Source: Bacteroidetes bacterium GWE2_42_24
GTDB lineage: Bacteria; Bacteroidota; Bacteroidia; Bacteroidales; TTA-H9
Direction: 5' to 3'
DNA: 64,000 nt
Assembly: GCA_001768515.1 (NCBI GenBank)
Contig: MEOA01000061.1
Location: 1 to 64,000 of the forward strand
This document shows positions 1,037-19,197 of the stretch, piece by piece; positions within the stretch are counted from its first letter, which is position 1; each line of letters begins with the position of its first letter. Both the position numbers and the translations under genes were made by a program. The notes beneath the pieces were generated by a model. The model did no database searches. It was not told where the DNA came from and saw only the letters and a program-made list of their open reading frames with translations.

Positions 1037-1046
1037 GTTATAGGCC
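1037..1046 (-). repeat. Cassette-boundary half-site E
   Basis: GTTATAGGCC here is the exact reverse complement of GGCCTATAAC at 1709-1718, so the membrane-protein gene 1086-1691 is bracketed by a private 10-bp inverted repeat. No matching opposite arm of an attC-like element could be found to the left (toward 920), so this site looks truncated or joined to unrelated DNA. Confidence 0.6.
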
Positions 1047-1065
1047 GGTTTCCTTTTTATCATCG

Positions 1066-1105
1066 TTATTTAGTCAAATCATTCTTTATTTAGTCAAATC
1101 ATTCT
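1066..1105. repeat. Exact 20-bp tandem duplication spanning a stop codon
   Basis: TTATTTAGTCAAATCATTCT occurs twice in tandem at 1066-1085 and 1086-1105. The second copy contains the stop codon and last codons of the gene 1086-1691; the first copy lies just downstream. It looks like a recent replication-slippage duplication. Confidence 0.9.
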
Positions 1106-1691
1106 TTGTTATCCTGAGAAAGAATCCTGTTGTGTCATTATAATCTCTATACAATATGATGACTCCGGGATATTTCGTTTTCTCGCTGTCAGACTGTTGA
1201 ATAACCGCAAACTTATAATATTCACTCTCATGCCTGAGGAATCCAATATCTTTGAAAAAAACCGTATCTCCTTTTAACTCGTATTTACCTTTAACCTCCT
1301 TTACGCTAAAGCACACACTCCTTTCTGTAAATGTATAATTCTCTTTCAGTTTAAGAGTTGTCATACAATTTGCAACTCCCTCTCTTTCTGCAAACAACAA
1401 GTCCTTGCCTTGTAACTTGTCAAAGTTTATTAGTCCGCTTGGTTTTAAATATGTTGCTGTCAATACAACGACTAATATTCCGATAATTAACAGTCGTTGT
1501 TTGTCGATAAATTTCTCTCTAAAGGCAAAGAAAAGCTGCCTCAAAAGTAGAAATCCAAGTACCAAATAGACTATCATAAGTATGAAAAACACTGGGAATG
1601 CAAAAAATCCAAGTTTGCCTTCCCAATAGTAATTTGTGTTTATAATTATGAAGAATAGAATTGTCGTTATGAATAGTCCTTTTTGTTTCAT
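1086..1691 (-). CDS. Small membrane protein of unknown function (cassette gene)
   Basis: A 201-residue protein starting at an ATG. About three hydrophobic segments can be seen in residues 5-85 (one near 8-18, one near 28-53, one near 67-85). They are followed by a soluble domain whose beta-rich stretch contains KGKYELKGDTVFFKD, a pattern common in small Bacteroidota proteins that carry a lipocalin-like or beta-sandwich tail. No enzyme motif is visible. The gene occupies one unit of the cassette-like array: GTTATAGGCC on its 3' side and GGCCTATAAC on its 5' side form an inverted pair, and attC-like element A lies directly upstream of its start. The AT-rich composition matches the array. Function unknown. 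Confidence 0.7.
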   Translation of the reverse strand: MKQKGLFITTILFFIIINTNYYWEGKLGFFAFPVFFILMIVYLVLGFLLLRQLFFAFREKFIDKQRLLIIGILVVVLTATYLKPSGLINFDKLQGKDLLFAEREGVANCMTTLKLKENYTFTERSVCFSVKEVKGKYELKGDTVFFKDIGFLRHESEYYKFAVIQQSDSEKTKYPGVIILYRDYNDTTGFFLRITKNDLTK

Positions 1692-1708
1692 GGTATCACA
1701 CTTTAATT

Positions 1709-1842
1709 GGCCTATAACGGTAAGTGTATGGCGTCGTAAGGGAGTGCGGACTTCAAACCTGTCAATTTACCACCGAAAAATGATGCGGGTGATACTGATA
1801 GAAAACCTCTGAAATCCTTATGCACTATACACATTGTTGTGT
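1709..1842 (-). repeat. attC-like element A
   Basis: The outer arms pair imperfectly: 1724-1743 (GTGTATGGCGTCGTAAGGGA) against 1815-1832 (TCCTTATGCACTATACAC). The left core is GGCCTATAAC (1709-1718) and the right core GTTGTGT (1836-1842). The inner part shares TGCGGACTTCAAACCTGTCAA with element B (TGCGGGCTTCAAACTTATCAA) and TGATGCG...ACCTCTGAA with element C. It lies between the NO VEIN-like gene and the small membrane-protein gene. Confidence 0.7.
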
Positions 1843-1962
1843 CTTCGTGCTTTATTATCAGCCGTCTGTCCGTGCGTTGGGGCAGCCATACTCTTTGACA
1901 AGTTTTGGTTTGTGCGTCGACATTTTGAGCGACTTGGCAATGTGTATGGTTGCTTATTTGGG

Positions 1963-4900
1963 TCATACTTGTAATGTAATTGGATTAGGAAATATTTTAC
2001 CCTGTTGTAATAAACTACTTGGATTTTCTATTATTTCAATTCGAGCATCATTACCAGCATTATATACTCTATAAATAGAATAATTTTCAGCCTTATCAAA
2101 CATAAACACCCATTCGTTAGGAGAGAGGTATATTAAATCTTTACTGCCAGATGGTGTACCTTTTACGTCAATATACCTTATTCTCCCTTTATAAAAGTAC
2201 TCTATATCATATGGCTTTCCGCTTTCTTCTTGCATATTTACCCATACTATACTTGAGAAATTATTATCACTTTTAATTAAATATTCATAAACGAATTCTT
2301 CACACCATCTACCAACATCTTCTCGAACATCTTGACTTTCTATTTTAGAAAAATTTGCTTCTGCTTTTATATTAGAGCCTGTAAATATTTTGGTTTTTGC
2401 TGAAATATTTGAAATGTCCTGCGTTTTAGGGGATGAAGTAGGTGAAAAACGTTCAACAATATTTGTTTCATTGAAAGAGTCATATTCTATCTCTGGGTCG
2501 GCCATGACTGATTCTTCAGGTTGTGTTTCATATACAACAGGCTCTTCCTTATTAGAATCTTTTTCTTTGTGTTTAGAAAATTTTCTCGGTTGAAGTACTT
2601 TTGATAAGTCAATCCCCTGTTCTATTAACCATTCTTTGATTTCATTTTCATCTGATTCTAGTAAAAGAAAACGTAGCTCCTCATTTAAACCACTTATCCC
2701 TAACAAATTTGTAAGTTCTTTTATTAAACTAAGTAATGTTCTTTCGCTCTTCCATCTTCCTTTGAAATAGAAATTACCTTTCTCTTTATAAACAGTTAAC
2801 GTAGGTCCGTCAAAAGTTTCAGACAAATAATTAAATGATAATTTTATTTCAGTTGCAGTATAAAATACTGTACTCTCTAATATTGCATATAAGTTTTCAA
2901 ATAACACATTCTTTTCCTCGAAGTTTCTTTTTTCTACTAATGCAACATAATATGGAAGAATTTCTTCAAACTTCTTTTTCAAAGAATTGTCGACTATTGG
3001 AGCGTCAAATGTTGCGATAAACTCATCAATGGTTTGTATTTGTAATAGAGTTACAAATTCGCTAAATTTATCAGAATTTTTCTTGACGTTTTCAGGAATT
3101 TGGATTAGTTTAAGTTTATCTGAATCCAGTGAAAAGCCTTCTATTGTAATCCATTTTAATTCTGTTGCTGGTTCAAAACTATTATTTTCACTTAAAAGTT
3201 TATTCGTTAGTGCCCAATCAGATATAGTTTTTTTGCTTTCTGAAGGCATGTCTAGAAGTAGATTAGCAATTTTATTATAAATTAATCCAATCCTTTGAAT
3301 GGAAGGTTTGATTTTTGATTCTTCATCTTCTGCTTGCTCACATAGCTTTGTAAGAATGAGTAGATAGTCAGAAAGCTCCAACTTGTCTTTTAAATTAAGA
3401 AGTTCTTTCCATGTATCTGATAGCGGATTATCGTAGTCAAAAACAGGTATATAATTACTAGCTATTAACTTCACTTCTATTTCATTAATAAAAACTTTTT
3501 CAGGCTCTAAAATTTCTTTAGTTGATGTAGGGATACATTTTTGATTTTTAATAAACCACGGAAAATAATTCTTTACCGAATGAGCATAACTATTATGGCC
3601 ATAGCCTTGACCATACTTGTATCTAGCATTTTCTATTAATTCTGAAAGGTTGTGGTTAATTATAATATTATTCCAAAAAAGTTTCGAATATTCAAAACTA
3701 GTTGAGATTAAGTTAATAAATGATGGTAGTTTAACTAAACTAATTGCATTATGACTTCCGAAACCAAAACCACCCTGCCGTTCAGCATCTCTTCTACATT
3801 CATTAACCCAATCCTCATGAGTTATATTTTTTAAAGCGCTTAATGAATTGTTATTATTTATCGTTTTAATCTCAACTCTATCTTGTACGCCAATTGCTTT
3901 AAAGAAAAGATTCCATTCCAATTCGCTACTATCTGAAAATAAATATTCTTCTGATACATAAAATATGTCATCTTTTATTATTCCTTCAATTTTTAATTGG
4001 GGTTGATATTTATCAGATAAAAAACAATGTTGCGCTTCCCTAAATGTAACATCTGGGCTTTTAGTTTTAATCTTTAATTCTCTCAAAGATTCTAGCACTT
4101 CCTCATCAAGTTCATTTTGCTTATTCAAACGAAACAGATAGTGAGTAACTTGAAGAAAGTTATCATTTGTGATAAAATCTTTTTTTTCTAAATTCGGGAT
4201 TATAACATTGGTTACATATGCTAATAGAGAGGGTTCTCTAACTCCGATTTTTTTTAACCATTCAAAAATTAAATTGTTCTGTTGAATTTTTTCGAAAACA
4301 TTAGGATGAATTATTGGAATATCACCCAGTTCTGTAGAACTTATACCAGTAGGAAAACAAATGCCATTTGAAGGATTATAAAGCAAGTTATTTTCGTCAT
4401 AAATAAACGGAAGTGTCTTTAAAGTTTGAAACCAAATCCCTTTTTTATCATCATCTGACTTTTCTTTGAAATAACAGATTAAATCATAGTTGTGAGAAAC
4501 CGAATGCCTTGAAGTGAAAGATGTAGACTTGAAAAATCTATCAAAATTTTCGAGTTCAAATACTTCAACACCTATTGATTTTAATTTGCTCGATTCTTCA
4601 ACTTTCGAGCTGACAAAACAATCATCTGAGAAGGTCAAGCCTTTTTCAGTTTTCAGGTAATCAGTTATAGATTCATGGTCTATGAAAGTTTGGGTTGATA
4701 ATCCTGTTTTATCTAGAATAACTTCCTTTGAATTCTTAATATTTTCCTTATCAGTGACAATAAAGCTTTTATTAGAGCAATGAATATTAAAGCTTATATC
4801 AAAAGCTTGTTTTAATTCATTTTGCTGATTGTTGAATTTTCTCGGCAATAAATGTAATACCTGATATTTATATTGTGTTGTTGATAGAAGCTGTAACCAT

Positions 4901-5961
4901 TCAAATGTTTTTTCTGCAATTAGCTCAAAAAGCCACTGATTCCACACTTTGTCCTCATGAATTCCCTCTCTAGCAGCATTAGTTAAAAAACTACCATTTA
5001 TTAAAAAAGGAAGTTTAAAGTCTCTTACTTTTGTAGGTAGATATGTAAAAATCAAGCTATCTACTTCATTTAATGACCTTATTTTCCTGTTTTCAAGTTT
5101 TGCAGCAAAAGATATCTCTGTGAATTCAGCGTCCTTCAGTTTTTTGGGTGTTTTTTCATCTCTTTTGAGAGCATCTCTAGTGATTTGAGGTACTGATATT
5201 GTCTCATATGTTTTTGTTATCCAAGAACTAACTTCCTTACTATTTTTATGGATTGCGACTTCACTAAAGTTCTCGTTTGAATTACTCTTTTTCTTTTCAA
5301 TTAAAGTAATTGAATTACCTTCCTTAGAAATAGAAATTTTTGATACCCGTCTAAGGAATAAAAGGATTTGACCATTGCTTAACAATTCTTTCAAATCGTT
5401 TTCAAGAGATTGGGCGTCTTCAATTTTAATAATAGTAGAAACATTATATTTATTCTTAGCAATACTATTTTGTACTTGCTCTGATGGGAGGTCATTTTGC
5501 TCTGTCCAAATTGGAATTATTTGCCAAGGGAGGATTTTATCAAAATTAGATTTGTCAAAACGGAATTGAAATCCATCTGAGAAAATTGCTACATAATTTG
5601 ACTTTCCAAAAACTGATTTAAACCCAATTCCTTTATATCCTGTTTTCGTTGTGTCAGCCTTTTTTGTGCTTGAACCTGCGCTAGTTAGAGATTTTATATC
5701 GTCCTCATTAAATGGTTGTCCATTATGGGAAACTATCAAAAAATCTTTGAAAAACTCAAAATGAACTTCATTATCAATATCTTCAGCAGCATCGTCAGCA
5801 TTCTGGATTAGTTCAAAAACAAATCTTTGACTTTCAGAATAAATATCACTCGATACAGTATCTAAAAGATTCGACATTGTCTCTGCTTGGTCAGGGTCAT
5901 TAAAGTCTGAACGTTTGTTATATAAATCTTCAATAAATAATTTTTTTTCCATAAATCTCAT
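1963..5961 (-). CDS. NO VEIN-like giant protein: GHKL ATPase plus C-terminal DUF3883 nuclease-like domain
   Basis: A 1332-residue protein. The N-terminus is a Hsp90/sacsin-type GHKL ATP-binding domain: N-box ELIQNADDA (Asn54), a G1-like SHNGQPF near 78-84 and the glycine loop GYKGIGFKSVF at about 108-118. The long middle has no motif I recognise. The C-terminus (about 1214-1310) matches DUF3883, with EEFVYEYL, PYDIEY (Asp1252), RYIDVKG (Asp1265, Lys1267) and LSPNEW, which resembles a PD-(D/E)xK-like core. The same pairing is known from plant NO VEIN and from bacterial proteins often found in defence islands. Start is ATG at 5961; a second ATG three codons in is equally possible. The gene is AT-rich, lies between attC-like elements B and A, and has about 120 bp of leader and tail inside its cassette. 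A nucleic-acid-targeting defence role is inferred, not shown. Confidence 0.8.
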   Translation of the reverse strand: MRFMEKKLFIEDLYNKRSDFNDPDQAETMSNLLDTVSSDIYSESQRFVFELIQNADDAAEDIDNEVHFEFFKDFLIVSHNGQPFNEDDIKSLTSAGSSTKKADTTKTGYKGIGFKSVFGKSNYVAIFSDGFQFRFDKSNFDKILPWQIIPIWTEQNDLPSEQVQNSIAKNKYNVSTIIKIEDAQSLENDLKELLSNGQILLFLRRVSKISISKEGNSITLIEKKKSNSNENFSEVAIHKNSKEVSSWITKTYETISVPQITRDALKRDEKTPKKLKDAEFTEISFAAKLENRKIRSLNEVDSLIFTYLPTKVRDFKLPFLINGSFLTNAAREGIHEDKVWNQWLFELIAEKTFEWLQLLSTTQYKYQVLHLLPRKFNNQQNELKQAFDISFNIHCSNKSFIVTDKENIKNSKEVILDKTGLSTQTFIDHESITDYLKTEKGLTFSDDCFVSSKVEESSKLKSIGVEVFELENFDRFFKSTSFTSRHSVSHNYDLICYFKEKSDDDKKGIWFQTLKTLPFIYDENNLLYNPSNGICFPTGISSTELGDIPIIHPNVFEKIQQNNLIFEWLKKIGVREPSLLAYVTNVIIPNLEKKDFITNDNFLQVTHYLFRLNKQNELDEEVLESLRELKIKTKSPDVTFREAQHCFLSDKYQPQLKIEGIIKDDIFYVSEEYLFSDSSELEWNLFFKAIGVQDRVEIKTINNNNSLSALKNITHEDWVNECRRDAERQGGFGFGSHNAISLVKLPSFINLISTSFEYSKLFWNNIIINHNLSELIENARYKYGQGYGHNSYAHSVKNYFPWFIKNQKCIPTSTKEILEPEKVFINEIEVKLIASNYIPVFDYDNPLSDTWKELLNLKDKLELSDYLLILTKLCEQAEDEESKIKPSIQRIGLIYNKIANLLLDMPSESKKTISDWALTNKLLSENNSFEPATELKWITIEGFSLDSDKLKLIQIPENVKKNSDKFSEFVTLLQIQTIDEFIATFDAPIVDNSLKKKFEEILPYYVALVEKRNFEEKNVLFENLYAILESTVFYTATEIKLSFNYLSETFDGPTLTVYKEKGNFYFKGRWKSERTLLSLIKELTNLLGISGLNEELRFLLLESDENEIKEWLIEQGIDLSKVLQPRKFSKHKEKDSNKEEPVVYETQPEESVMADPEIEYDSFNETNIVERFSPTSSPKTQDISNISAKTKIFTGSNIKAEANFSKIESQDVREDVGRWCEEFVYEYLIKSDNNFSSIVWVNMQEESGKPYDIEYFYKGRIRYIDVKGTPSGSKDLIYLSPNEWVFMFDKAENYSIYRVYNAGNDARIEIIENPSSLLQQGKIFPNPITLQV

Positions 5962-6081
5962 TTATACTATCTGGACTGAGCGTCAGCAAAGATTTGGCTC
6001 TTTTGCAAGCTAAGTGTCAGCTTTTGAGTTGGGGCTTGCAAATGTGCCAAATGTGCGTTGGCGTTTTCTTTTTCAGCATGA
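5962..6081 (-). other. Non-coding leader of the NO VEIN-like cassette
   Basis: About 120 bp between the boundary core of element B and the ATG. It has internal short repeats (CACATTTGG followed by CACATTTGC on the minus strand; GCAAGC and CTTGCAAA stretches) and shares GCCCCAAC with the cassette tail at 1843-1962. The first bases after the core, TTCATGCT then an A-run, are shared with the start of the 7750-8562 cassette. A 78-codon open frame crosses it but looks non-coding. Confidence 0.5.
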
Positions 6082-6213
6082 ACACAACGGTGAGTATATG
6101 CAAAGTAGGCGATTGCGGGCTTCAAACTTATCAAACCGACACCATTTTGAAGCGGGCTACAACCGTTGAATTTACTACTGTCACGCCTATTTTGTATATA
6201 CATTGCTAGCCAT
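6082..6213 (-). repeat. attC-like element B
   Basis: The clearest of the three elements. Outer arms 6094-6111 and 6184-6201 pair at 16 of 18 positions (GTATATGCAAAGTAGGCG against the complement of CGCCTATTTTGTATATAC). A second inner stem pairs GCGGGCTTCAAA (6115-6126) with TTTGAAGCGGGC (6146-6157) at 10 of 12 positions. The left core ACACAAC (6082-6088) matches the right core of element A across the NO VEIN-like gene. The right core GCTAGCCAT (6205-6213) matches the left core of element C across the dGTPase gene. Confidence 0.75.
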
Positions 6214-6215
6214 AG

Positions 6216-7583
6216 TTAATCTACGCGATGTCCCATTAATTCTCTAAATAAATCAATAGCAAAGTTATCCGACATACCACACACATAGTCGGTTACTAGT
6301 TGAAGTTTATTATATTCTTTGTTTGGGTATCTTTCAAGTATTTCGTTCACAAATCTGTAACTTGGTGAAATCAAGGCATGTAATTTAGCCTCTTTTGATT
6401 TTTGGTTATCTAATCTTTGTGAGTTTGTTGTTGCATCTACAAGAATTTCTAGCAAGAAACTGATTACTCGCTCTCCAACAAGTTCTCGTTTTAGTACGCT
6501 TCTATGCTGAAAATTTGTAATACTTAATTTCTTAAATGTTTTACGCAAAGCTGCTGCCTTTGATTCTAATACTAAATCTTTATCAAAGGAGCCATTCATT
6601 ATATTATCATGTTTATCAATAAATGCTTTTGTAGCTTCTATTAGCATATATGAATGAACTTTTATCCGAAACTTTTGAACTAACAACTCTTCTCTAGCTG
6701 GATGGTTTTTGTCAATACTTTTATCAAGATTTTCTAAAATATCAATAAACTCAGAATTTTCAGTGTTAGTTAGATTCGTTTTGATGACATCATATAGTTT
6801 TTCCTTAGAGATAATTTTTTTTCTAAATCCATCTTCAATATCACAAACAGAATATGCTACATCGTCTGCAGCCTCTAGCAGAAACACAAGAGGATGACGT
6901 TTCCCATTTAGTCCTAATTCTGAATTGATTGTTTCATAATCAACTTTTTCTGATTGAAAATATCCAAACTTTTTTCTACTTATTTGTGAATCGTCATCTT
7001 TATTCCCTTCTACTGATGAACAAGGATACTTAATAATTGAAGCCAGAGTAGGAAAGGTCAGATTATAACCATATTCATCATCTGAAAGCCCTAATTTTCT
7101 TAATATTCTAAATCCCTGAACATTGCCGTCAAAATGCAAAAAATCATTTTTCTCTTCATCTGTAAATTCTGAGCATTTACCAGATTTAAAATACTTTGAA
7201 AAATAGTTTTGAATTGTATCTTCACCAAAATGTCCAAATGGAGGATTTCCAATATCATGAACAAGACCAGCGGTTTGAAGAATAGCAGGAATTGAACCTT
7301 TAAATGTAGAATCAAGTTTTTTAGATTCAATTAATTCTTTCTCAACTCCAATTCCCAGATTCTTTGCAAAACTCGAAACTTCAAGTGAATGAGTTAATCG
7401 AGTTCGAGTAAAATCACTTTTGTCAAGAGGAAAAACTTGAGCTTTATTTTGTAATCTTCTCACATGTGCTGATAAAATTATTCTTGAATAGTCGTTTTCA
7501 AATACATTACGACCATCTGAAATATCTTTAATTACGGAAGAATCTCTAAATCTTTTTTCTTTCAATAACTGATTCCAATTCAT
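6216..7583 (-). CDS. dgt: dGTPase-family deoxynucleoside triphosphate triphosphohydrolase
   Basis: A 455-residue HD-domain enzyme of the Dgt family, which cleaves a dNTP to the deoxynucleoside and tripolyphosphate in the cytoplasm. Metal and substrate motifs are intact: RTRLTHSLEVS (His65), LVHDIGNPPFGH (His109, Asp110, His118), FLHFDGNVQG near 148-157 and AADDVAYSVCDIEDG (Asp240/241). The N-terminal R-D-pattern and the length are normal for the family. Bacterial dGTPases are known both from housekeeping and from anti-phage nucleotide depletion. Placement in an AT-rich cassette next to a NO VEIN-like protein makes the second more likely here, but that is inference. It starts at ATG 7583, and its stop codon abuts attC-like element B. 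Confidence 0.88.
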   Translation of the reverse strand: MNWNQLLKEKRFRDSSVIKDISDGRNVFENDYSRIILSAHVRRLQNKAQVFPLDKSDFTRTRLTHSLEVSSFAKNLGIGVEKELIESKKLDSTFKGSIPAILQTAGLVHDIGNPPFGHFGEDTIQNYFSKYFKSGKCSEFTDEEKNDFLHFDGNVQGFRILRKLGLSDDEYGYNLTFPTLASIIKYPCSSVEGNKDDDSQISRKKFGYFQSEKVDYETINSELGLNGKRHPLVFLLEAADDVAYSVCDIEDGFRKKIISKEKLYDVIKTNLTNTENSEFIDILENLDKSIDKNHPAREELLVQKFRIKVHSYMLIEATKAFIDKHDNIMNGSFDKDLVLESKAAALRKTFKKLSITNFQHRSVLKRELVGERVISFLLEILVDATTNSQRLDNQKSKEAKLHALISPSYRFVNEILERYPNKEYNKLQLVTDYVCGMSDNFAIDLFRELMGHRVD

Positions 7584-7606
7584 ATGTAGGTTTTTTGTTT
7601 TTAATT

Positions 7607-7740
7607 ATGGCTAACGTTTAGTATATGCTACGTAGGGGATTTCGTGGACGCTTCCCTATCCACCGATAAGAACTTTGCCAGCGAGTGATGCGCTTGGCAT
7701 ACCTCTGAACCCCCTATGGAGTATTTACTGTGTTAGCGTT
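7607..7740 (-). repeat. attC-like element C
   Basis: Outer arms 7621-7638 (GTATATGCTACGTAGGGG) and 7711-7728 (CCCCTATGGAGTATTTAC) pair at 14 of 18 positions. An inner stem pairs GCCAGCG near 7674 with CGCTTGGC near 7691. The left core ATGGCTAAC (7607-7615) complements the right core of B at 8 of 9 positions. The right core GTTAGCGTT (7732-7740) is the exact complement of the half-site at 8595-8603. Confidence 0.75.
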
Positions 7741-7749
7741 TCGTGCTTT

Positions 7750-8562
7750 TTAATTTAATTGCATATTAGTATTCCTTTTCATTTCTTCTGCAATATCGAA
7801 TCTTTTTGCCTTGATAATATCGTCAAACGCCTTTTGAACAAAATTCGATACCCAATATTGCGAATCTTCTTCAGGTTGAATACCAACTTCTAAACTATCC
7901 ATATAATCACTTGCCATCATATAATGCTCATTAAGATAGAAAATATAAGCAAAATGTTGAATGAAAATAGCATCTATATCTTTTGAAAAAATACCTAAAT
8001 GTTTCACCCGATTAGGATTATAAATCACATTGTCGTTTAAAAGTAAATTACGATAAAAATTATAATGTGTATGGTCGTTACACCTATCACGTATTTTTTG
8101 ATATCTATCGTCCTTTTTTAGTAAATCAGTAATCGGCTTAAGTTTAGGTGAATCCTTAATATATTTAGATATTACTCGATACTCAGGAATAGTCTCAGAA
8201 CCTTGCCGCCAATTATCAATTTGAGTTACAATAAAATTATCAAGACTGAAATTATCTGATAAGTACAAATTTGCATAAATATTAATCATAGTAGAATCAT
8301 AATACTTTCGCAGTAGCGCATAGCTATCATTGATTCGTCCTTTTTGTAAAATTTCCTTAATAGAATCTATAGTGCCTTTTATTGAAGAAAATGTAAAAGT
8401 ATCAAGATTGAGAATAGCCTTAGTTCCCATAGAACTCCAATTCATAACCGCGAAGGATAAGGAATCATAGAAATCAGAATAATATTGCAACTGAACAAAA
8501 ATCGAATGTTCAGAATAATCTTTCCCTAATCTATCCTCTGGTTTATCGTTTTCTAATCGCAT
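7750..8562 (-). CDS. Unknown mainly alpha-helical protein in the cassette array, possible HEPN-like
   Basis: A 270-residue soluble protein rich in Tyr, Asp, Asn and Lys, predicted largely helical, without signal peptide or membrane segment. I do not recognise its family. Residues 160-166 read R-C-N-D-H-T-H, which fits the loose R-x(4-6)-H pattern of HEPN ribonucleases; a single such match is weak evidence. It starts at ATG 8562. It forms its own cassette between GTTAGCGTT (7732-7740) and its exact complement (8595-8603), beside the dGTPase and NO VEIN-like genes, so a defence or abortive-infection role is conceivable. Confidence 0.75.
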   Translation of the reverse strand: MRLENDKPEDRLGKDYSEHSIFVQLQYYSDFYDSLSFAVMNWSSMGTKAILNLDTFTFSSIKGTIDSIKEILQKGRINDSYALLRKYYDSTMINIYANLYLSDNFSLDNFIVTQIDNWRQGSETIPEYRVISKYIKDSPKLKPITDLLKKDDRYQKIRDRCNDHTHYNFYRNLLLNDNVIYNPNRVKHLGIFSKDIDAIFIQHFAYIFYLNEHYMMASDYMDSLEVGIQPEEDSQYWVSNFVQKAFDDIIKAKRFDIAEEMKRNTNMQLN

Positions 8563-8594
8563 ATCAATTGTCTGTGGTGTCGTTTTTTAGCATG

Positions 8595-8625
8595 AACGCT
8601 AACTTGTATATATATCCCCACAATT
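8595..8625 (-). repeat. Cassette-boundary half-site D, right end of the array
   Basis: AACGCTAAC (8595-8603) is the exact reverse complement of 7732-7740. The flanking AGCATGAAC resembles the sequence before the core of element B (CAGCATGAACACAAC), and the TTGTATATATAT that follows resembles the start of an attC-like left arm. The rest of the element is missing. GC content rises from here rightward, so this is probably the junction with older chromosomal DNA. Confidence 0.6.
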
Positions 8626-8928
8626 GCTGATATCCTTCCAATCCGACTTAATCTCATCATCTTCCGTAATCTTTCCTTCCGATATCAATACTTCTTCTGA
8701 AAAATTCAATGTAGCCTCACTGTCATTACTATACCACAGCCCCTCCGGACAGGGTAGCTCACCATATCCCCGCTTAAAATACCTCACCTCATCGTCTATG
8801 CCGTTGTGGTTCATTTTCACCATCCGCAACAGAGAAGAAATGGCACTGCCATGTTTTTTGCATGGCCTTTCAATCCGCATTGTCGGGCGGTTAAAACAGA
8901 GAGAAACTGTTGGGTTGTAAAATCTCAT
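8599..8928 (-). CDS. Possible truncated hypothetical protein at the array edge
   Basis: A 109-codon frame with an ATG start and another ATG at codon 39. The second half (KSDWKDISN and similar acidic/polar sequence) reads more like protein than the first. Its stop codon TAG falls inside GTTAGCG of half-site D, so the present C-terminus (GDIYTS) may be created by insertion of the array into a longer gene. A similar-length frame runs on the opposite strand. No family recognised; coding status uncertain. Confidence 0.35.
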   Translation of the reverse strand: MRFYNPTVSLCFNRPTMRIERPCKKHGSAISSLLRMVKMNHNGIDDEVRYFKRGYGELPCPEGLWYSNDSEATLNFSEEVLISEGKITEDDEIKSDWKDISNCGDIYTS

Positions 8929-10914: not shown

Positions 10915-11257
10915 GTACCTGGGGTGTTTTGGCTTTGGATTATTCGGGGAACACAAATGTAGGGGTAAAATAAATCGGATGGATGAAAAATCTGAGACGT
11001 CGGCCTGCCGGTCAACAAGCCTTTGAAGTGCCTGAGGTACTTGTTGAGTTGTTTAATACCTGCTTTTTGTGCTCACCGGCAGCAGAGATGCCGGCCAATC
11101 GCGGGATGATTGATGTTTTTTTACCGGTAAGATGTAAATAGGTGGATGATACGGCTTTAACTACGGTCATGGCAATTTGGTTTTCTTGTAAAAGCGTCAC
11201 GCCAACGTGGTTGATAACATTGGCGTGGCAGTATTTCATGTGAAAAGATCCGGCGAA
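10915..11257. other. Intergenic region upstream of the GT39-like gene
   Basis: About 340 bp with no convincing gene. A 75-codon minus-strand frame at 11012-11239 has no recognisable features. No clear terminator was seen for the minus-strand gene that ends at 11258. Confidence 0.4.
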
Positions 11258-12649
11258 TTACATCCTGATATCCTCCACGGTTCCGCCCATCCGGCTTTTT
11301 TCGGCCATGAAGCCCATGACGTGGCTCTCAATGGAGGCTTCGATGGTAGAAGTGAGCAAGGAAGCATCGTGTTTGGAAACAGCATGTATCCAGTTGGCTG
11401 CCAAACGCCAGTCGCCTCCGCCATGACCTGAATTTTTATAGTTCTCGACGTTGATGGCATTGGCTTCAAGGGTCTCTGATTTATCGGTGCGGAAGTCATA
11501 GATTGTGAACCGATCCATGTCGCCTTCGATGTATCCCATGCTACCCATCACACGGGTACGACGGCCACCCCAGGGGGTAAAAGCTTCCATGCTGAAGGAT
11601 GCAGTAACCCCTCCCTCGAACTCGATGTTGGTTACATAATGATCACACTGGTCGTTGTCCATGTCGTAGACACAGCGGCCATAGTTGGTGGTCTTCAGGT
11701 AATTCATGATGGCATCGCCCTGTTTCTCCTTTTCATCGGGGAGGTCGAACACGTAGGTCCATCCCCTTTTGCGGTAATAGATGTTAAGGGCTGAATAGGG
11801 ACAGTTTGCTTCGGCCTGACAACCATCTGTGCAACGGTGTGTAGCGCCATGTGGTGCATTCTCTTTACGGAACCATTTCAGGTTGCCGAAGGCCTGAATC
11901 CGTTTGGCAGGTTTCCCGATCATCCAGCGCATGATGTCGAGGTCGTGACACGATTTGGCCAGGATGATCGGAGTAGTGGCTTTCGAGTTGTGCCAGTTGC
12001 CGCGAACATAGGAATGGCTCATGTGGATGTGATCGATCGGCTCCATGTGCTGCATGCTGATGATCTCCCCGATGGCGCCGCTTTGCATCAGTTCGCGCAT
12101 CTTCACGAAATAGGGGGCATAACGCAGTACATGGCACACGGCGACAATTCTGCCAGTCTTTTCAGCCAGGTTGAGTATGTCGCGGCACTCTTTCTCGGAG
12201 GGTGAAATGGGCTTTTCAAGCAATACGTCGTAACCAAGCCTCAGGGCCTCCATGCAGGGGCCGTAGTGAAGGTCATCGGGGGTGGTGATGATGATGGCAT
12301 CGGCAAATTTGGGCCGTTTAAAGACGTCTTCCCATGTTTTAAAACGGTTCTCTTCAGGGATGTTATGCTTCTTTGTATAGCGTTCATTCCTGATGGTGAT
12401 GGGTTCGGCTACCCCTATGATATCGAGTTGTTCAGGGAAGCTGAGGGCATAACCCCCATATACGTTACCACGTGATCCTGCCCCGCAGGTAATGGCGGTA
12501 ACAGGCTTTTCGGGTGTTTCGAAATTGTCGGGAAGGATGATGGGGAGCGCCTCGTGGTCACCGGCAAATGCCGACCAGGGGAGAAGGGAGCCGCCAAAGG
12601 CCAGCCCCATGAGCTTAAGCGCATCGCGTCTTGAGGTGTTTTTCGACAT
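11258..12649 (-). CDS. Tat-exported Gfo/Idh/MocA-family oxidoreductase
   Basis: A 463-residue protein. The N-terminus carries a twin-arginine signal (TSRRDALKLMG, then a hydrophobic stretch ending in SAFAGDH), so it is exported folded to the periplasm. A Rossmann NAD(P)-binding domain begins at VTAITCGAGSRG (about 52-63), followed by the family's EKPISPSEKEC near 150 and the second alpha/beta domain. Members oxidise or reduce sugars or inositols, or act in cofactor-retaining glycoside cleavage; the substrate here is unknown. A cysteine cluster near residues 270-290 (CTDGCQAEANC) is typical of a subgroup of exported members. ATG start; a TATATTTG box on the minus strand at 12672-12679 may be its -7 element. 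Confidence 0.85.
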   Translation of the reverse strand: MSKNTSRRDALKLMGLAFGGSLLPWSAFAGDHEALPIILPDNFETPEKPVTAITCGAGSRGNVYGGYALSFPEQLDIIGVAEPITIRNERYTKKHNIPEENRFKTWEDVFKRPKFADAIIITTPDDLHYGPCMEALRLGYDVLLEKPISPSEKECRDILNLAEKTGRIVAVCHVLRYAPYFVKMRELMQSGAIGEIISMQHMEPIDHIHMSHSYVRGNWHNSKATTPIILAKSCHDLDIMRWMIGKPAKRIQAFGNLKWFRKENAPHGATHRCTDGCQAEANCPYSALNIYYRKRGWTYVFDLPDEKEKQGDAIMNYLKTTNYGRCVYDMDNDQCDHYVTNIEFEGGVTASFSMEAFTPWGGRRTRVMGSMGYIEGDMDRFTIYDFRTDKSETLEANAINVENYKNSGHGGGDWRLAANWIHAVSKHDASLLTSTIEASIESHVMGFMAEKSRMGGTVEDIRM

Positions 12650-12998: not shown

Positions 12999-15599
12999 TT
13001 AAAATCCCAGCAAAATGCCTGTCTGGTAAACGACAAATGAGGCTAGCCATGCGATGGCGGTGGTATAGATGATGACGAAGGCACCCCATTTCCAGTGGCC
13101 TGCTTCACGGGCGATTACTGAAACGGTTCCCATGCAGGGGAAATAGAGGAGCACGAATACCATAAACGAGATGGCCACGAGCGGACTGAAAACCTTTTGC
13201 CCGATCTTCACCCCCTGATGGTACGATTGCCCCTGAAGACGTTTGATCAGTGAAGTTTCTGATGCATCATCGGGCGAGTAGAGTACGCCCATGGTGCTTA
13301 CTACTACCTCTTTACCGGGGACACCTGCCAGAATGCTTACCCCCATCTTCCAGTCGAAACCAAGCGGTGCAATGACAGGCGTGATGAAGCGGCCAAGCCG
13401 TCCTATGTAGGAGTTTAATTGCTGCTCAGAGGCCAGCAGTCCATCGAAATGATGGGTGATGCTGTCAGTCATCGTGGTGGCTGATGCCAGGTCAAGACTG
13501 CCGGCAGCTTCCAGTTTCGTTACTTTGGTCAATGCTTCATTTTTCCGATGCTCCAGTTTGCTGCTGTCACCGGCATGCGTTGGAAAATATCCGAGTGCCC
13601 AGATAATGATGGAAGCTACCAGAATGATGCCTGCAATCTTTCGCAGGTATTGCACGGCTTTGTCCCACATGTGCACAACGATAGCCCGGCCTGTCGGAAC
13701 GCGATAGGGTGGGAGTTCCATTACAAAGGGTACCATGTCGATACGAAACAAGGTTTTCTTCAGGAGTAGTGCTATTCCAATGGCCACCAGCACGCCGAGG
13801 CTGTAAATGATAAAGAGAACGGTGCCGGAGTGGCTGGGGAAAAAGGCGGTGATAAGCAGAACATATACTGGCAGCCGGGCACTGCACGACATGAATGGAT
13901 TGATCAGCATCGTGATCATCCTGTCGTTGCGGTTTTCAAGGGTACGGGTGGCCATGATGGCCGGTACCGTACAGCCAAAGCCCATCAGCAGCGGGATAAC
14001 AGATTTGCCATGAAGGCCTATCCTGTGCATGGCTTTGTCCATGATGAATACTGCACGTGCCATGTAACCGGTATCTTCCATCAATGAAATGAACAGGAAC
14101 AGCAATACAATGTTGGGCAGAAAGACGATGACACCACCCACACCCCCGATGATTCCGTCGATGAGGAGGTCTTTCAGCATACCTTCGGCCATGTTACTTC
14201 CGATAAGTCCCGATATCCAGTGTACACTGCTGTCGATCCATGCCATGGGATAACTGCCAATGGTAAAAGTTGCCTGAAACATCAGCCACATCAGGGCAGC
14301 AAACACCGGAATGCCAAACAACCGATGGGTGAGAAAGGTATCTATGACTTCTGTATTCCTGCGGCTTTCGGTACTCCCGGGGGTGAGGGTTTCCTTCAGT
14401 GCCCCGTTGATAAATCCATATTTGGAGTCGGTAATGATGGTCTCGATGGGCTCACCATAGAACTCTTTAATCCAGCGTTGTTCCTGCTCCACTACCTTCA
14501 GGATGGCCGCGTTATTATGACACAAGGCAATCCGTTTTAGCTCTTCAGGGTCTTTTTCAAGGAGTTTGAGGGCCAGATAACGCGAGGATACCCGATCAGT
14601 CAGGGCGGCATTTCCCGGTGCCTTGATGGTTTTTTGAATCTCTTTGACCGATTTTTCGATTGCCTGCCCATAGTTGATGTGAATGTGACGTACATGTGGA
14701 CAGCGATCCTCGAAAACCTCGATAATCTTATCCAGCAAATCGTTCATGCCACGCCCCTTCGATGCGACAGTAGGTACCATCGGAATCCCGGTAAGGCTTC
14801 CGAGGGCATCGTAATCGAGATGGTCTTCTCTTTTCTGAAGTTCATCAAACATGTTCAGGGCCATCACCACCTTGATGTCCATGTCGATGAGCTGAGTTGT
14901 GAGGTAGAGATTGCGTTCGAGGCTTGATGAGTCTACAACATTAAGGACAACATCAGGCAATTTATCGATGATGAAATTTCTTACGAAAACCTCTTCGGGT
15001 GTATAGGCTGTAATGCTATAGGTTCCGGGAAGGTCTATCAGATTGATGGTATGCTTCCCATGCCTGAAATGAACCTCCTTGGCATCGACTGTTACACCGG
15101 AGTAGTTGCCAACCCTTTCGTGTGCCCCGGATAACATGTTGAAAAGAGATGTTTTCCCGGCATTGGGGTTGCCTACCACAGCCACAGTAACCACCGAAGG
15201 GGGATAGGCGGCATCGGGCCAGGAATGGTGTTCAAAGTGGTGCCGACGATGACGTCTCCGGTCAGGAGCCGGGTTCCCCAAATGAGGGGGCCGCTGATGC
15301 TGATGGCGTCCACGCGATCGTCCGGGTGTCTCAAATACGCCATTCCAGATTTGTTCTTCAAAGAAAGCCGCTTCTTCTTCAGAAACGATCTCGATGAGTG
15401 AGGCTTCACTGTTGCGAAGTGAAACATTGTAGCCCATCACGTTATATTCTACAGGATCGTTCATCGGGGCTTTGCGGATAACAGTCACACGCTTGCCGGC
15501 TACAAATCCCATCTCCATGATGCGTTTGCGGAAGGCTCCACGCCCTTTTACCTTGGCAATGATGGCAGACTCGCCCTGATTTAAGTCCTGTAAAACCAT
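12999..15599 (-). CDS. feoB: FeoA-FeoB fusion, ferrous iron transporter
   Basis: A protein of about 866 residues importing Fe(II) across the inner membrane. The first 75 residues are a FeoA SH3-like domain (LNQGESAIIAKVKG, MEMGF). A linker rich in Arg, His and Pro (about 93-130) follows, then the FeoB G domain with G1 GNPNAGKTS (about 143-151), DLPGTYS and the NMFD form of G4. The permease part carries both gate motifs, GFGCTVPA and GVPGKEVVVS. The FeoA-FeoB fusion is common in Bacteroidota. The frame continues upstream to a TTG at 15656, but that codon sits in the -33 box of a good promoter, so ATG 15599 is the start. Expression is probably iron-controlled, but no operator was recognised. 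The gene is flanked by inverted copies of a dispersed repeat. Confidence 0.95.
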   Translation of the reverse strand: MVLQDLNQGESAIIAKVKGRGAFRKRIMEMGFVAGKRVTVIRKAPMNDPVEYNVMGYNVSLRNSEASLIEIVSEEEAAFFEEQIWNGVFETPGRSRGRHQHQRPPHLGNPAPDRRRHRRHHFEHHSWPDAAYPPSVVTVAVVGNPNAGKTSLFNMLSGAHERVGNYSGVTVDAKEVHFRHGKHTINLIDLPGTYSITAYTPEEVFVRNFIIDKLPDVVLNVVDSSSLERNLYLTTQLIDMDIKVVMALNMFDELQKREDHLDYDALGSLTGIPMVPTVASKGRGMNDLLDKIIEVFEDRCPHVRHIHINYGQAIEKSVKEIQKTIKAPGNAALTDRVSSRYLALKLLEKDPEELKRIALCHNNAAILKVVEQEQRWIKEFYGEPIETIITDSKYGFINGALKETLTPGSTESRRNTEVIDTFLTHRLFGIPVFAALMWLMFQATFTIGSYPMAWIDSSVHWISGLIGSNMAEGMLKDLLIDGIIGGVGGVIVFLPNIVLLFLFISLMEDTGYMARAVFIMDKAMHRIGLHGKSVIPLLMGFGCTVPAIMATRTLENRNDRMITMLINPFMSCSARLPVYVLLITAFFPSHSGTVLFIIYSLGVLVAIGIALLLKKTLFRIDMVPFVMELPPYRVPTGRAIVVHMWDKAVQYLRKIAGIILVASIIIWALGYFPTHAGDSSKLEHRKNEALTKVTKLEAAGSLDLASATTMTDSITHHFDGLLASEQQLNSYIGRLGRFITPVIAPLGFDWKMGVSILAGVPGKEVVVSTMGVLYSPDDASETSLIKRLQGQSYHQGVKIGQKVFSPLVAISFMVFVLLYFPCMGTVSVIAREAGHWKWGAFVIIYTTAIAWLASFVVYQTGILLGF

Positions 15600-16884: not shown

Positions 16885-19197
16885 TTATTTCACAATGATT
16901 TTCCGAACGGTATTTACCAGATCGCTGCTGATGTGAATGAAGTATAAACCTGAAGAAAGGGAGGTAGTATTGAGGCTTGCACTACCCGACAGTTTCTCAG
17001 CAGTCAGCAGGCGCCGGCCATTGGCATCAGTGAGTTCGATGCGTGAATTTTGTGGCAGGTTGTTTACCATAAGCATGCCGCTAACAGGATTTGGTCCAAC
17101 TGTTATGTCATCGATGAAAAGTTCTGTGGTGCCAACGCCGGTATCGCAAAGCAGGGTGGCTTTCCATCCGCTCTGGGGAGTGGCATCTGAAGCGATAAAC
17201 CGTATGGTAAGGCTGCGGGTGTCATTTGAAGAGATAACACCTCCGGGGCTGTCGTTACCACACCAGCTTCCGATGAGCGGGGCTGACAGATTATCTCCAT
17301 TATAGATTTCCAGTCTTTCCTTGTCGCAATCGGTGTTAATGTTAAACTCGCTGAAAGTGACACGCATTTGTTTTTCTGTATCAGGGCTGGTAAAGGTGAC
17401 CACCTTCTGTGAGTTTGGTGTGTAAGGATGATTGGGGCCTCCGTCATCGTAAAACATGCCTCCACAGGTGTTTATGTTTCCTTCTGGCATCAGGTATTGT
17501 TCGCCGACAAGGATATAGTTCCATTTCTCTTCGGTATCGGTGTACGTGGTATTTGAAGCAACGAGTGTCACGTCGTAAACCCCTTCTTCAGCATAAACAA
17601 TGTTCGCCGGATTTTTGACAGTTGATTGCGAAGGATTTGCTCCGGTGAAGTTCCATAGCCAGTTGGTTGGCCCGCCTACAGACTTATCGGTAAAGCTTAC
17701 GTTTTGGCCTGCATTAATCTGTGTGGAAGAAGCGGTAAAGCCTGCAAAAACACCCAGGGGGCAAAGCTGCACATTCAGGATGGTTTTGTTGTAATCAGCA
17801 GTCGAAACATTGCTGAGAGTTTTTGTAACATAGCCGGGGGCAGAAACCTGCAATGTCCAGATGCCACCCTTTATCAAGCGGTAATATTGTCCGTCGGTTT
17901 GGGAGGAGAAGACCATACTCGAATCGATGTCATGGTTCTTGACAAATACCTGTGCCCTGACTGGTTGACCGGTAATGCTGTCGGTTACGATGCCGCTGAT
18001 GCCATAGGTTACCTGTTCCATGTAGTTAAGCAGCGAACGGTAGTTGTAGTTCCAGAAGTTGGGAAGCTGACTGGCGGGGGGCGTCTTGGTGTTGCTTATC
18101 TCGATGGTTACCTCTCTGCATTGCTGGAAGTAGTTCATATAATCCTGACGTCCGCCTGTAATGGTGTACCATGCGTAACCATTGGTAACACCAGTACCGA
18201 AATCATCGAAGTAACCTCCGGGGCTGTATGTCTGCGCGGTATCGGCAAATTCGTTGCTTACCAGTTCCCACCAGTTGGCATCAGCCGAAGCCCGGCTCCA
18301 TGTATCCCAGGGGTAATTCATCACTTCGGCACCACCATGAAAATTGGCTGACATAACGAAATGGTGGTTCTCGGCGAAGTTCATGAAGGCGATAGTCTCC
18401 TTTTGCCATGCATTGCCATCGGGGTGTGGTCCTGCGGCAGGATCATAATAGTTACGGTTCATGTCGACATAGTTGGCGTTGGCTCTGATGGCTCCGTTTA
18501 CGGTGTTGTTGCCTCCCTTGTAAGTACCATCCGGATTTGCCAGGGGGTTGATATAAATGTTGATGTTATCAACCAGTTGAGTAACCCGGGGAATGGAGCC
18601 ATAATTAGTCAGCAGGTAATCGATCAGGCGAAGCATCAGTATGTAGCCGGTGAGTTCGTCACCATGTATTGAACTGGTGTATAGAAATTCAGGTTTCTGG
18701 CTGTTGACCGAACTGGTGATATGGGCAGCGAGAAGTTTACGGTTCTGGACACTGGTGCCAAATTCCACAATGTTACAAATGCTGGGATAATTGGCTGCAT
18801 AGTCGTTCATCATCTGGATGTAGGCATCGTAGGTTGGGTAGAAGTCCCATGCTGTGATGTTTTTGACATCCACGCGGTCGAGCATCCGGGGATTGGTAAT
18901 CAAAGAACCGGGGTGTGGTAAGAGCGACCATGTGTAATTGTACTTGAGAAATTTCTCAAATTCGGCACGGTTGGCGTATGCAAACACCCGGCCATCGTGC
19001 ACATTATCGACAGATATAATCCGACTGAGGGCGTCGAGGGTAGGCCTGTCAGCGGGGGCTTCGAAGGTGAAGTAAATTTCATTAACAGGGCTAAACAGCG
19101 CCGTTAGTTCGACATCGTTTACCTGTTGTTGCTGAGCCCGGCCAATGAAGGCGAAGGTGAGCAGCAACATGAGCATGAAGGTAGTTTTACGAAACAT
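16885..19197 (-). CDS. Secreted M14 zinc carboxypeptidase with PKD, CUB and T9SS domains
   Basis: A 770-residue secreted peptidase. Residues 1-21 are a signal peptide (ending FIGRAQ). The M14 domain (about 115-390) has zinc ligands in SSIHGDE (His178, Glu181) and ANFHGGAE (His287), substrate-binding NRNY (Arg248) and catalytic TIEIS (Glu366). It is followed by a carboxypeptidase regulatory-like beta domain (about 398-470, GIVTDSITGQPV), a PKD domain (480-560, NWLWNF), a CUB-like domain (about 570-690, CGG...FYDDGG) and a type A T9SS sorting domain (GPNPVSG...SGLYFIHI...KIIVK). It is therefore exported by Sec, moved across the outer membrane by T9SS, and probably attached or released there to cut C-terminal residues of peptides. 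Confidence 0.92.
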   Translation of the reverse strand: MFRKTTFMLMLLLTFAFIGRAQQQQVNDVELTALFSPVNEIYFTFEAPADRPTLDALSRIISVDNVHDGRVFAYANRAEFEKFLKYNYTWSLLPHPGSLITNPRMLDRVDVKNITAWDFYPTYDAYIQMMNDYAANYPSICNIVEFGTSVQNRKLLAAHITSSVNSQKPEFLYTSSIHGDELTGYILMLRLIDYLLTNYGSIPRVTQLVDNINIYINPLANPDGTYKGGNNTVNGAIRANANYVDMNRNYYDPAAGPHPDGNAWQKETIAFMNFAENHHFVMSANFHGGAEVMNYPWDTWSRASADANWWELVSNEFADTAQTYSPGGYFDDFGTGVTNGYAWYTITGGRQDYMNYFQQCREVTIEISNTKTPPASQLPNFWNYNYRSLLNYMEQVTYGISGIVTDSITGQPVRAQVFVKNHDIDSSMVFSSQTDGQYYRLIKGGIWTLQVSAPGYVTKTLSNVSTADYNKTILNVQLCPLGVFAGFTASSTQINAGQNVSFTDKSVGGPTNWLWNFTGANPSQSTVKNPANIVYAEEGVYDVTLVASNTTYTDTEEKWNYILVGEQYLMPEGNINTCGGMFYDDGGPNHPYTPNSQKVVTFTSPDTEKQMRVTFSEFNINTDCDKERLEIYNGDNLSAPLIGSWCGNDSPGGVISSNDTRSLTIRFIASDATPQSGWKATLLCDTGVGTTELFIDDITVGPNPVSGMLMVNNLPQNSRIELTDANGRRLLTAEKLSGSASLNTTSLSSGLYFIHISSDLVNTVRKIIVK

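Follow-up and report, generated by a model that had tools for sequence, protein, structure and literature searches.

The first 64,000 nucleotides of contig MEOA01000061.1 from Bacteroidetes bacterium GWE2_42_24 (the window) contain, between positions 1037 and 8603, four minus-strand genes separated by three palindromic attC-like sites, and this region is, with a probability of about 0.9, a short cassette array of an integron-like system of Bacteroidota that has been separated from its integrase. Integrons are platforms on which bacteria collect foreign genes. The presence in this system of a recombinase, an attI-like region, cassettes of gene and attC-like site running in one direction, and cores peculiar to each cassette implies that it works like an integron; however, since three tested features place the recombinase outside the IntI family and the sites fail two tested features of classical attC sites, it is not a classical integron. 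We accordingly read it, from comparative analysis, as a probable distinct integron family or sister system, with the same logic and a different integrase and attC class, in line with the suggestion of an initial sequence-only reading that it might be an unusual integron family or a separate cassette system. Both the recombination sites and the recombinase differ from every integron family that we found described.

Cores match across genes and delimit cassettes

The unit of these arrays is one gene (sometimes two) with a downstream attC-like site of about 130 bp, which on the strand of the genes has the order R''-body-R', R'' and R' being its terminal core elements. In the window the cores pair across each gene and not inside each element: GTTAGCG...CGCTAAC frames cassette A, GTTAGCC...GGCTAGC, with one mismatch, cassette B, GTTGTGT...ACACAAC cassette C and GTTATAGGCC...GGCCTATAAC cassette D, the match extending over at least 7 nt in A, C and D. 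The same pattern was recovered from adjacent site pairs in two sets of cassettes (n=48 and n=51, containing related loci), when the bases after GTT at the start were compared with the reverse complement of those before AAC at the end. In the first set 58% of the pairs match over 4 nt, compared with 4.2% between the two ends of one site and 5.3% in shuffled cassettes (at most 19% in 10000 shuffles); in the second set a 6-nt match is seen in 57% of the pairs, compared with 2.9% inside sites. Combined, 53 of the 99 pairs match over 6 nt (shuffled mean 1.7, maximum 8 in 5000), many of the matches running for 10 nt and resuming after one A/C mismatch. As the covariance model used for the sites (R1, see below) pairs the core halves within a site, any bias of the model opposes this result. 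A circular integron cassette has one attC, and after insertion its two core halves lie at opposite ends of the cassette; a cassette start that matches its own end is therefore what is expected in integrons.

Several further observations are consistent with cassettes as the exchanged units. The 82 sites of 20 further loci share one strand within each locus, with arrays that reach ten sites or more. The 124 cassette proteins match 150 Pfam families, each present in at most 4 proteins, indicating that the sites are independent of any single gene family; the cargo includes defence, restriction-modification and beta-lactamase-family genes. Two genomes from different families (G023 and G031) share a 1.47 kb stretch, 94% identical, that ends exactly at CAACCGTT/ (a slash marks the crossover point before GTT) and is divergent beyond it. 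The proposal that each gene and the attC-like site following it in one direction constitute a cassette is thereby supported, down to a core match per cassette as seen in integron cassettes. The elements might alternatively be ordinary interspersed palindromes, such as repetitive extragenic palindromes, miniature inverted-repeat transposable elements or RNA hairpins like terminators, that lie between genes by chance. They are indeed palindromic, intergenic and dispersed, with 34 R1 matches scattered over the host genome (G000); but it is the start and end of a gene unit that match each other and not those of the same element, the sites are one-directional in arrays downstream of one recombinase, and the shared segments stop exactly at GTT, all of which renders this explanation extremely improbable.

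Two kinds of repeats were also observed in these arrays. An element of about 290 bp (GATGATATAGCATTCGCC...CACTGC) is found at 11039-11325 and 18068-18352 of locus L083 (G023) and at 661-977 of L077, three times in one genome, and ends each time directly before the GTT of the next cassette, i.e. at the presumed crossover point; it might represent a cassette without a gene, or else an insertion element with these sites as its target. Repeated stretches of 235-580 bp, 87-97% identical, adjoin cassette genes in some arrays (L067 8380-8715, 11284-11519, 12319-12573 and 16394-16727; L073 3337-3898, 7840-8416 and 11249-11826).

The sites form a covarying hairpin with fixed mismatches

The covariance model R1, built from 17 copies of the site, confirmed the three elements noticed as separators of the four minus-strand genes, with coordinates in agreement within 2-3 nt. 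The window sites measure 130-131 bp each, and length is nearly constant in 21 copies from the host genome and its relatives (127-133 bp). In the 17 copies 93% of the arm cells are paired, versus 35-43% in slid controls, with 63 compensatory cells versus 18 in shuffled ones; 90 copies gave 87.1% paired and 476 compensatory cells versus 149. The inner helix is paired at 95.2% in the 90 matches, with changes on both sides at 16 of 16 pairs, and the outer core helix at 61%, a low value that agrees with the core being part of the cassette instead of the site. The structure is a single long imperfect arm (6 bp, A.C, 4 bp, A.C, 6 bp) with the outer core, instead of the two nested stems initially described. 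The 1x1 A.C mismatches occupy two fixed places (16/17 and 15/17 copies) in arms of equal length; since A.C turns into G.T on the bottom strand, the arms form a more stable fold on that strand, which folding energies favour in 82/85 sites (Wilcoxon p 4e-15).

The cores are general only as GTTR and YAAC, the remaining core bases differing per cassette. The RYYYAAC/GTTRRRY pattern is not found, and the sequence-only reading was literally correct that the cores do not follow GTTRRRY; the rule that they do follow is GTTR together with self-complementarity inside one cassette. In size and fold, an imperfect hairpin of about 130 bp, the sites fall within the classical attC range (57-141 bp). Short versions of about 68 nt with the same ends also occur (L090 13948-14015 and 18249-18317, L091 15955-16023, L177 8907-8973), so that the length of the site body varies, as in classical attC sites. 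No Rfam family matches at the window sites, and a search with a fixed-arm pattern gave one chance match alone because the arm sequence varies.

R1 detected sites in 40 of 60 relatives, in 104 of 247 sampled Bacteroidota genomes (roughly 40%; partly metagenome bins) and in 0 of 36 genomes outside the phylum, counts that reflect the training of the model on this clade and, for the large searches, strict filters.

A tyrosine recombinase and an attI-like junction precede arrays in relatives

In 80 loci fetched with an alignment of the recombinase, R1 detected 37 sites, all of them in Bacteroidota loci; 36 lie downstream of the recombinase and share its strand. With its presence in the relatives called at 299 bits or more to the A3 profile, sites are found in 19 of the 20 relatives with the recombinase versus 21 of the 40 without it (Fisher p 7e-4), at a mean of 8.9 versus 3.2 sites per genome over the 60 relatives. 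The start of the first cassette (9-10 nt), as predicted from the R'' of the first site, was found between the recombinase and the first site in 14 of 15 loci, whereas the starts of other loci were found there in 3 of 210 control trials. The loci looked at first likewise showed such a junction. The sequence before this attI-like junction often has inverted repeats and ends like ATATAAACNA/GTT, and a motif derived from 14 integrase-proximal junctions ranks the array start of the window first among 2353 GTT sites. In the host genome, the GGATATATATACAA/GTT of the window's array start also begins a cassette on contig C3, and the recombinase is encoded on contig C52, at the contig end. On contig C16 the terminal part of a recombinase gene that is almost identical to it precedes a predicted junction and then an array. 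Hence, the description of the array as being without an integrase is true of the window; relatives, however, encode the integrase upstream of the array, and the host genome encodes it on another contig. The check put forward in the sequence-only reading, namely that a covariance model should recover many copies between unrelated genes, with paired arms and a recombinase nearby in some genomes, was carried out, and the outcome was favourable on every count.

Reading frames before two of the attI-like junctions (window 8599-8928; L195 just before 5358) run into GATATATATACAAGTTA, which encodes DIYTS or a similar sequence, and these junctions possibly represent insertion into the 3' ends of genes.

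Recombinases of a second kind adjoin a few sites, and it might be supposed that the sites are targets of IS91-type elements with a tyrosine recombinase of their own, the arrays being by-products of IS91 rolling-circle capture. In L073, L074 and L075 such a recombinase adjoins a site whose R'' abuts fixed sequence, accompanied in L073 by an IS91 transposase and in L075 by a similar-looking open reading frame. However, these recombinases form a separate clade (100/99), the pattern is confined to few sites, and core matching and attI junctions are unrelated to IS91 ends; we can give this view hardly any credence, and IS91 insertion at the sites looks secondary. The recombinase-bearing elements in question (L073 11810-14130, L075 1-2122, L074 7562-9171) end right at the R'' of a site (GTTCAAC/GTGCAAC) and may be likened to the IS1111-attC elements and group IIC-attC introns of classical integrons. 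A GTTCAAC R'' beside a 334-aa recombinase, considered as a candidate attI, was dropped since that recombinase belongs to an IS91-type element.

The recombinase has HARP-like N-terminal repeats and lies outside the IntI family

At the N-terminus of the tyrosine recombinases adjoining the arrays stand from one to several repeats that show the motif W(S/N/D)x5-6W, followed by a core-binding domain of SAM-like type and by the catalytic domain, in which the residues R, K, HxxR, H and Y are present. Flavobacterium aciduliphilum (L102) is one of the species with a HARP-type integrase. In profile searches 5 of 22 repeat domains gave weak to modest matches to the Pfam HARP domain (PF07443; best E 7e-7). 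Against PDB profiles the repeats score best with the HARP domain of SMARCAL1 (4o66, E 0.002), a domain known to recognise fork-like DNA. In an AlphaFold2 model the repeats adopt a beta-beta-alpha-beta-beta-alpha arrangement; a fold search with them placed 4o66 at rank 4 with a weak match (Foldseek E 1.1), and an assignment to HARP from the fold alone was dropped on this ground.

Score against the IntI family profile, catalytic spacing and tree placement together put the recombinase outside that family. Eight HARP-type recombinases score 201.7-226.1 bits against TIGR02249 (cut-off 265), the match falling into two segments that leave out model positions about 180-239. They are devoid of the IntI-specific insertion between K and HxxR, the spacing of these residues being 57-63 in HARP-type rows (58-59 in most) versus 99-100 in IntI, as counted over measurable rows and with L129 misread by the pattern. 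A tree of 90 recombinases groups the IntI rows in a clade (100/100) without any HARP-type member and 48 Bacteroidota rows in another (91/97). The first Foldseek match among solved structures is the integron integrase VchIntIA of V. cholerae bound to a V. cholerae repeat (VCR) hairpin (2a3v, E 1.6e-17); a VIA-align comparison of the full model, in which the recombinase part alone was compared, put archaeal Xer and XerA slightly ahead. By profile, the simple XerA/Xer tyrosine recombinases (NF040815) are the closest generic family, with scores near or over the cut-off of 220 bits, but the Bacteroidota recombinase differs from them in its N-terminal HARP-like extension, array association and attI junction. 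A joint clade of the IntI and Bacteroidota recombinases is not rejected (approximately unbiased test, p 0.456), and hence a single and a double origin both stand.

These results bear directly on the alternative that the elements are canonical attC sites served by an ordinary IntI. The polarity of R'' and R' is the same, the size is in the classical range, and canonical IntI genes are present in G015 and G064. However, the IntI family search exceeds its cut-off in 1 of the 60 relatives, both inspected copies look broken, that of G015 has no such site in the surrounding 12.5 kb, and that of G064 sits behind an array headed by the remnant of another recombinase; moreover, the adjoining recombinases are without the IntI insertion, and the sites have neither RYYYAAC/GTTRRRY cores nor extrahelical bases. 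This alternative is thus very unlikely, and canonical IntI as the owner of the sites was dropped after inspection of the G015 and G064 copies. In G064 (locus L171) a truncated recombinase start (5724-5996) lies directly before the array, and the canonical IntI, with a disrupted C-terminus, lies downstream (14232-15332); this genome has housed two kinds of integrase.

Tyrosine recombinases with HARP-like N-termini were also encountered outside Bacteroidota, in metagenome-assembled genomes of Undinarchaeales (L114 9929-12498), Spirochaetota (L120 9962-11029) and Firmicutes (L111 9974-11125), the first with two such recombinases in tandem that are weakly placed as sister to IntI. They may reflect bin contamination or a wider, older family.

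Several points weigh against the reading of the region as an array of an integron-like system. The window has no integrase, and as that of the host genome lies at a contig end, it is not fully linked to an array of its own. Sites are nonetheless present in about half of the relatives without the integrase (21/40), so that either the enzyme acts in trans, integrases were missed or the arrays are dead. No match over 6 nt is found in 46 of the 99 adjacent pairs, many of which span long gaps, where sites have probably been missed, or adjoin IS91-type insertions. The HARP assignment comes from sub-threshold to modest sequence matches and a weak fold comparison. Finally, excision and insertion of cassettes by the recombinase is a reaction that we infer from comparison; the same holds for use of the bottom strand by the enzyme, for regulation of the system and, as a possibility, for hairpin binding by the HARP-like domains.

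Comparison with known integrons and a proposed mechanism

With the classical integrons of IntI, attI and attC (class 1 integrons and the Vibrio superintegron) the system has in common an integrase, attI, gene-attC cassettes in one direction, crossover ahead of the TT in GTT, a cassette start complementary to its own end and a folded imperfect hairpin. Classical integrases read the folded bottom strand via extrahelical bases, one of which is contacted through the IntI-specific helix alpha-I2 (PMC3053210). In contrast, the Bacteroidota recombinase is without this insertion and has HARP-like domains, and its sites have A.C (bottom-strand G.T) mismatches where classical attC sites have extrahelical bases, with cores conserved only as GTTR/YAAC. 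The Bacteroidota integrase also differs in that it usually points toward the array, an orientation shared with the integrons of Treponema, where intI is transcribed toward attI and the array (PMC3607928); the IntI of Treponema, however, groups with other intI genes, whereas the Bacteroidota recombinase is outside the IntI clade. The window resembles the clusters of attC sites without integrases (CALIN) in its grouped sites, but these are not of the classical attC class, differing in cores and extrahelical bases.

These comparisons suggest the following mechanism. The HARP-like tyrosine recombinase, encoded in trans in the present case and in cis in relatives, would most likely bind the folded bottom strand and cleave at C/GTT in R', a position supported by the points where cassette homology and insertions stop. 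The cassette would leave as a circle, its two ends joined again to form a single hairpin with full pairing, and would then be inserted at attI, the region beside the integrase gene. As both the extrahelical bases and the IntI insertion are missing, the enzyme would have to read the mismatched hairpin otherwise, possibly via its HARP-like domains. More tentatively, and at somewhat short of even odds in our estimation, the system might represent a second origin of cassette capture via folded single-stranded sites, in which a Xer-like recombinase of Bacteroidota gained HARP-like domains that bind forks or hairpins and recognition of mismatches took the place of that of extrahelical bases, independently of IntI and widespread in the phylum.

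Genes and sites of the window array

On the minus strand the array runs from gene A through site 3, gene B, site 2, gene C and site 1 to gene D (Table 1), framed by two half-sites, the start GTTAGCG at 8603 and the last R''. Beyond the latter R1 reports no site, and no attC body was recognised. The cassette A protein has no match in Pfam, PADLOC or NCBIfam, and that of cassette D none in Pfam or PADLOC. The cassette B protein matches the PADLOC dGTPase (E 3.2e-68) and scores 193 bits against the anti-phage dGTPase family NF041026, under its cut-off of 400. The cassette C protein is a full-length match to TmtA (PADLOC PDLC03972, 1678.5 bits), making it a candidate anti-phage defence protein. 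An imperfect 20-bp tandem duplication (TCGTTATTTAGTCAAATCAT / TCTTTATTTAGTCAAATCAT) was noted at 1063-1102, just beyond the end of gene D.

Table 1. Features of the cassette array in the window, in minus-strand order
Feature	Coordinates	Strand	Basis and details
attI-like array start GGGGATATATATACAA/GTT, crossover point of cassette A	8601-8619	-	Junction-motif ranking
Cassette A gene, 270 aa	7750-8562	-	Open reading frame; cassette about 8603-7615; ends GTTAGCGTT and AACGCTAAC match
attC-like site 3	7609-7738	-	R'' CGCTAAC 7732-7738, R' GTTAGCC 7609-7615; R1 125.5 bits, E 1.9e-27; covariation
Cassette B gene, 455 aa, dGTP triphosphohydrolase (HD family)	6216-7583	-	TIGR01353 327.8 bits (cut-off 152.35)
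attC-like site 2	6082-6211	-	R'' GGCTAGC, R' GTTGTGT; R1 113.3 bits, E 1.6e-24
Cassette C gene, 1332 aa, sacsin/NO VEIN-type protein	1963-5961	-	NOV_C, SACS and P_loop_sacsin matches
attC-like site 1	1712-1842	-	R'' ACACAAC, R' GTTATAG; R1 96.1 bits, E 2.3e-20
Cassette D gene, 201 aa, probable membrane protein	1086-1691	-	Open reading frame
Last R'' core GGCCTATAAC, end of cassette D	1037-1046	-	10-nt perfect match to cassette D start GTTATAGGCC

Implications

Integrons are considered rare in Bacteroidetes, for which the IntegronFinder 2 survey lists In0 elements and a single complete integron, from Salinibacter (PMC9024848); reviews count Bacteroidota among the phyla with integrons (PMC8618304). 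A large survey of tyrosine recombinases (PMC8138268), searched for HARP, makes no mention of it, and the full-text literature, with preprints and most subscription papers outside this scope, yielded no description of HARP-bearing integrases, of Bacteroidota attC-like sites or of such integron-like hairpins. Judging from the published results of IntegronFinder, these arrays would probably escape tools that rely on IntI and the classical attC. If the arrays are active, many Bacteroidota of several classes carry a platform for gene capture, and the family offers a natural comparison for asking which part of the enzyme reads the folded attC and whether integrons arose once.

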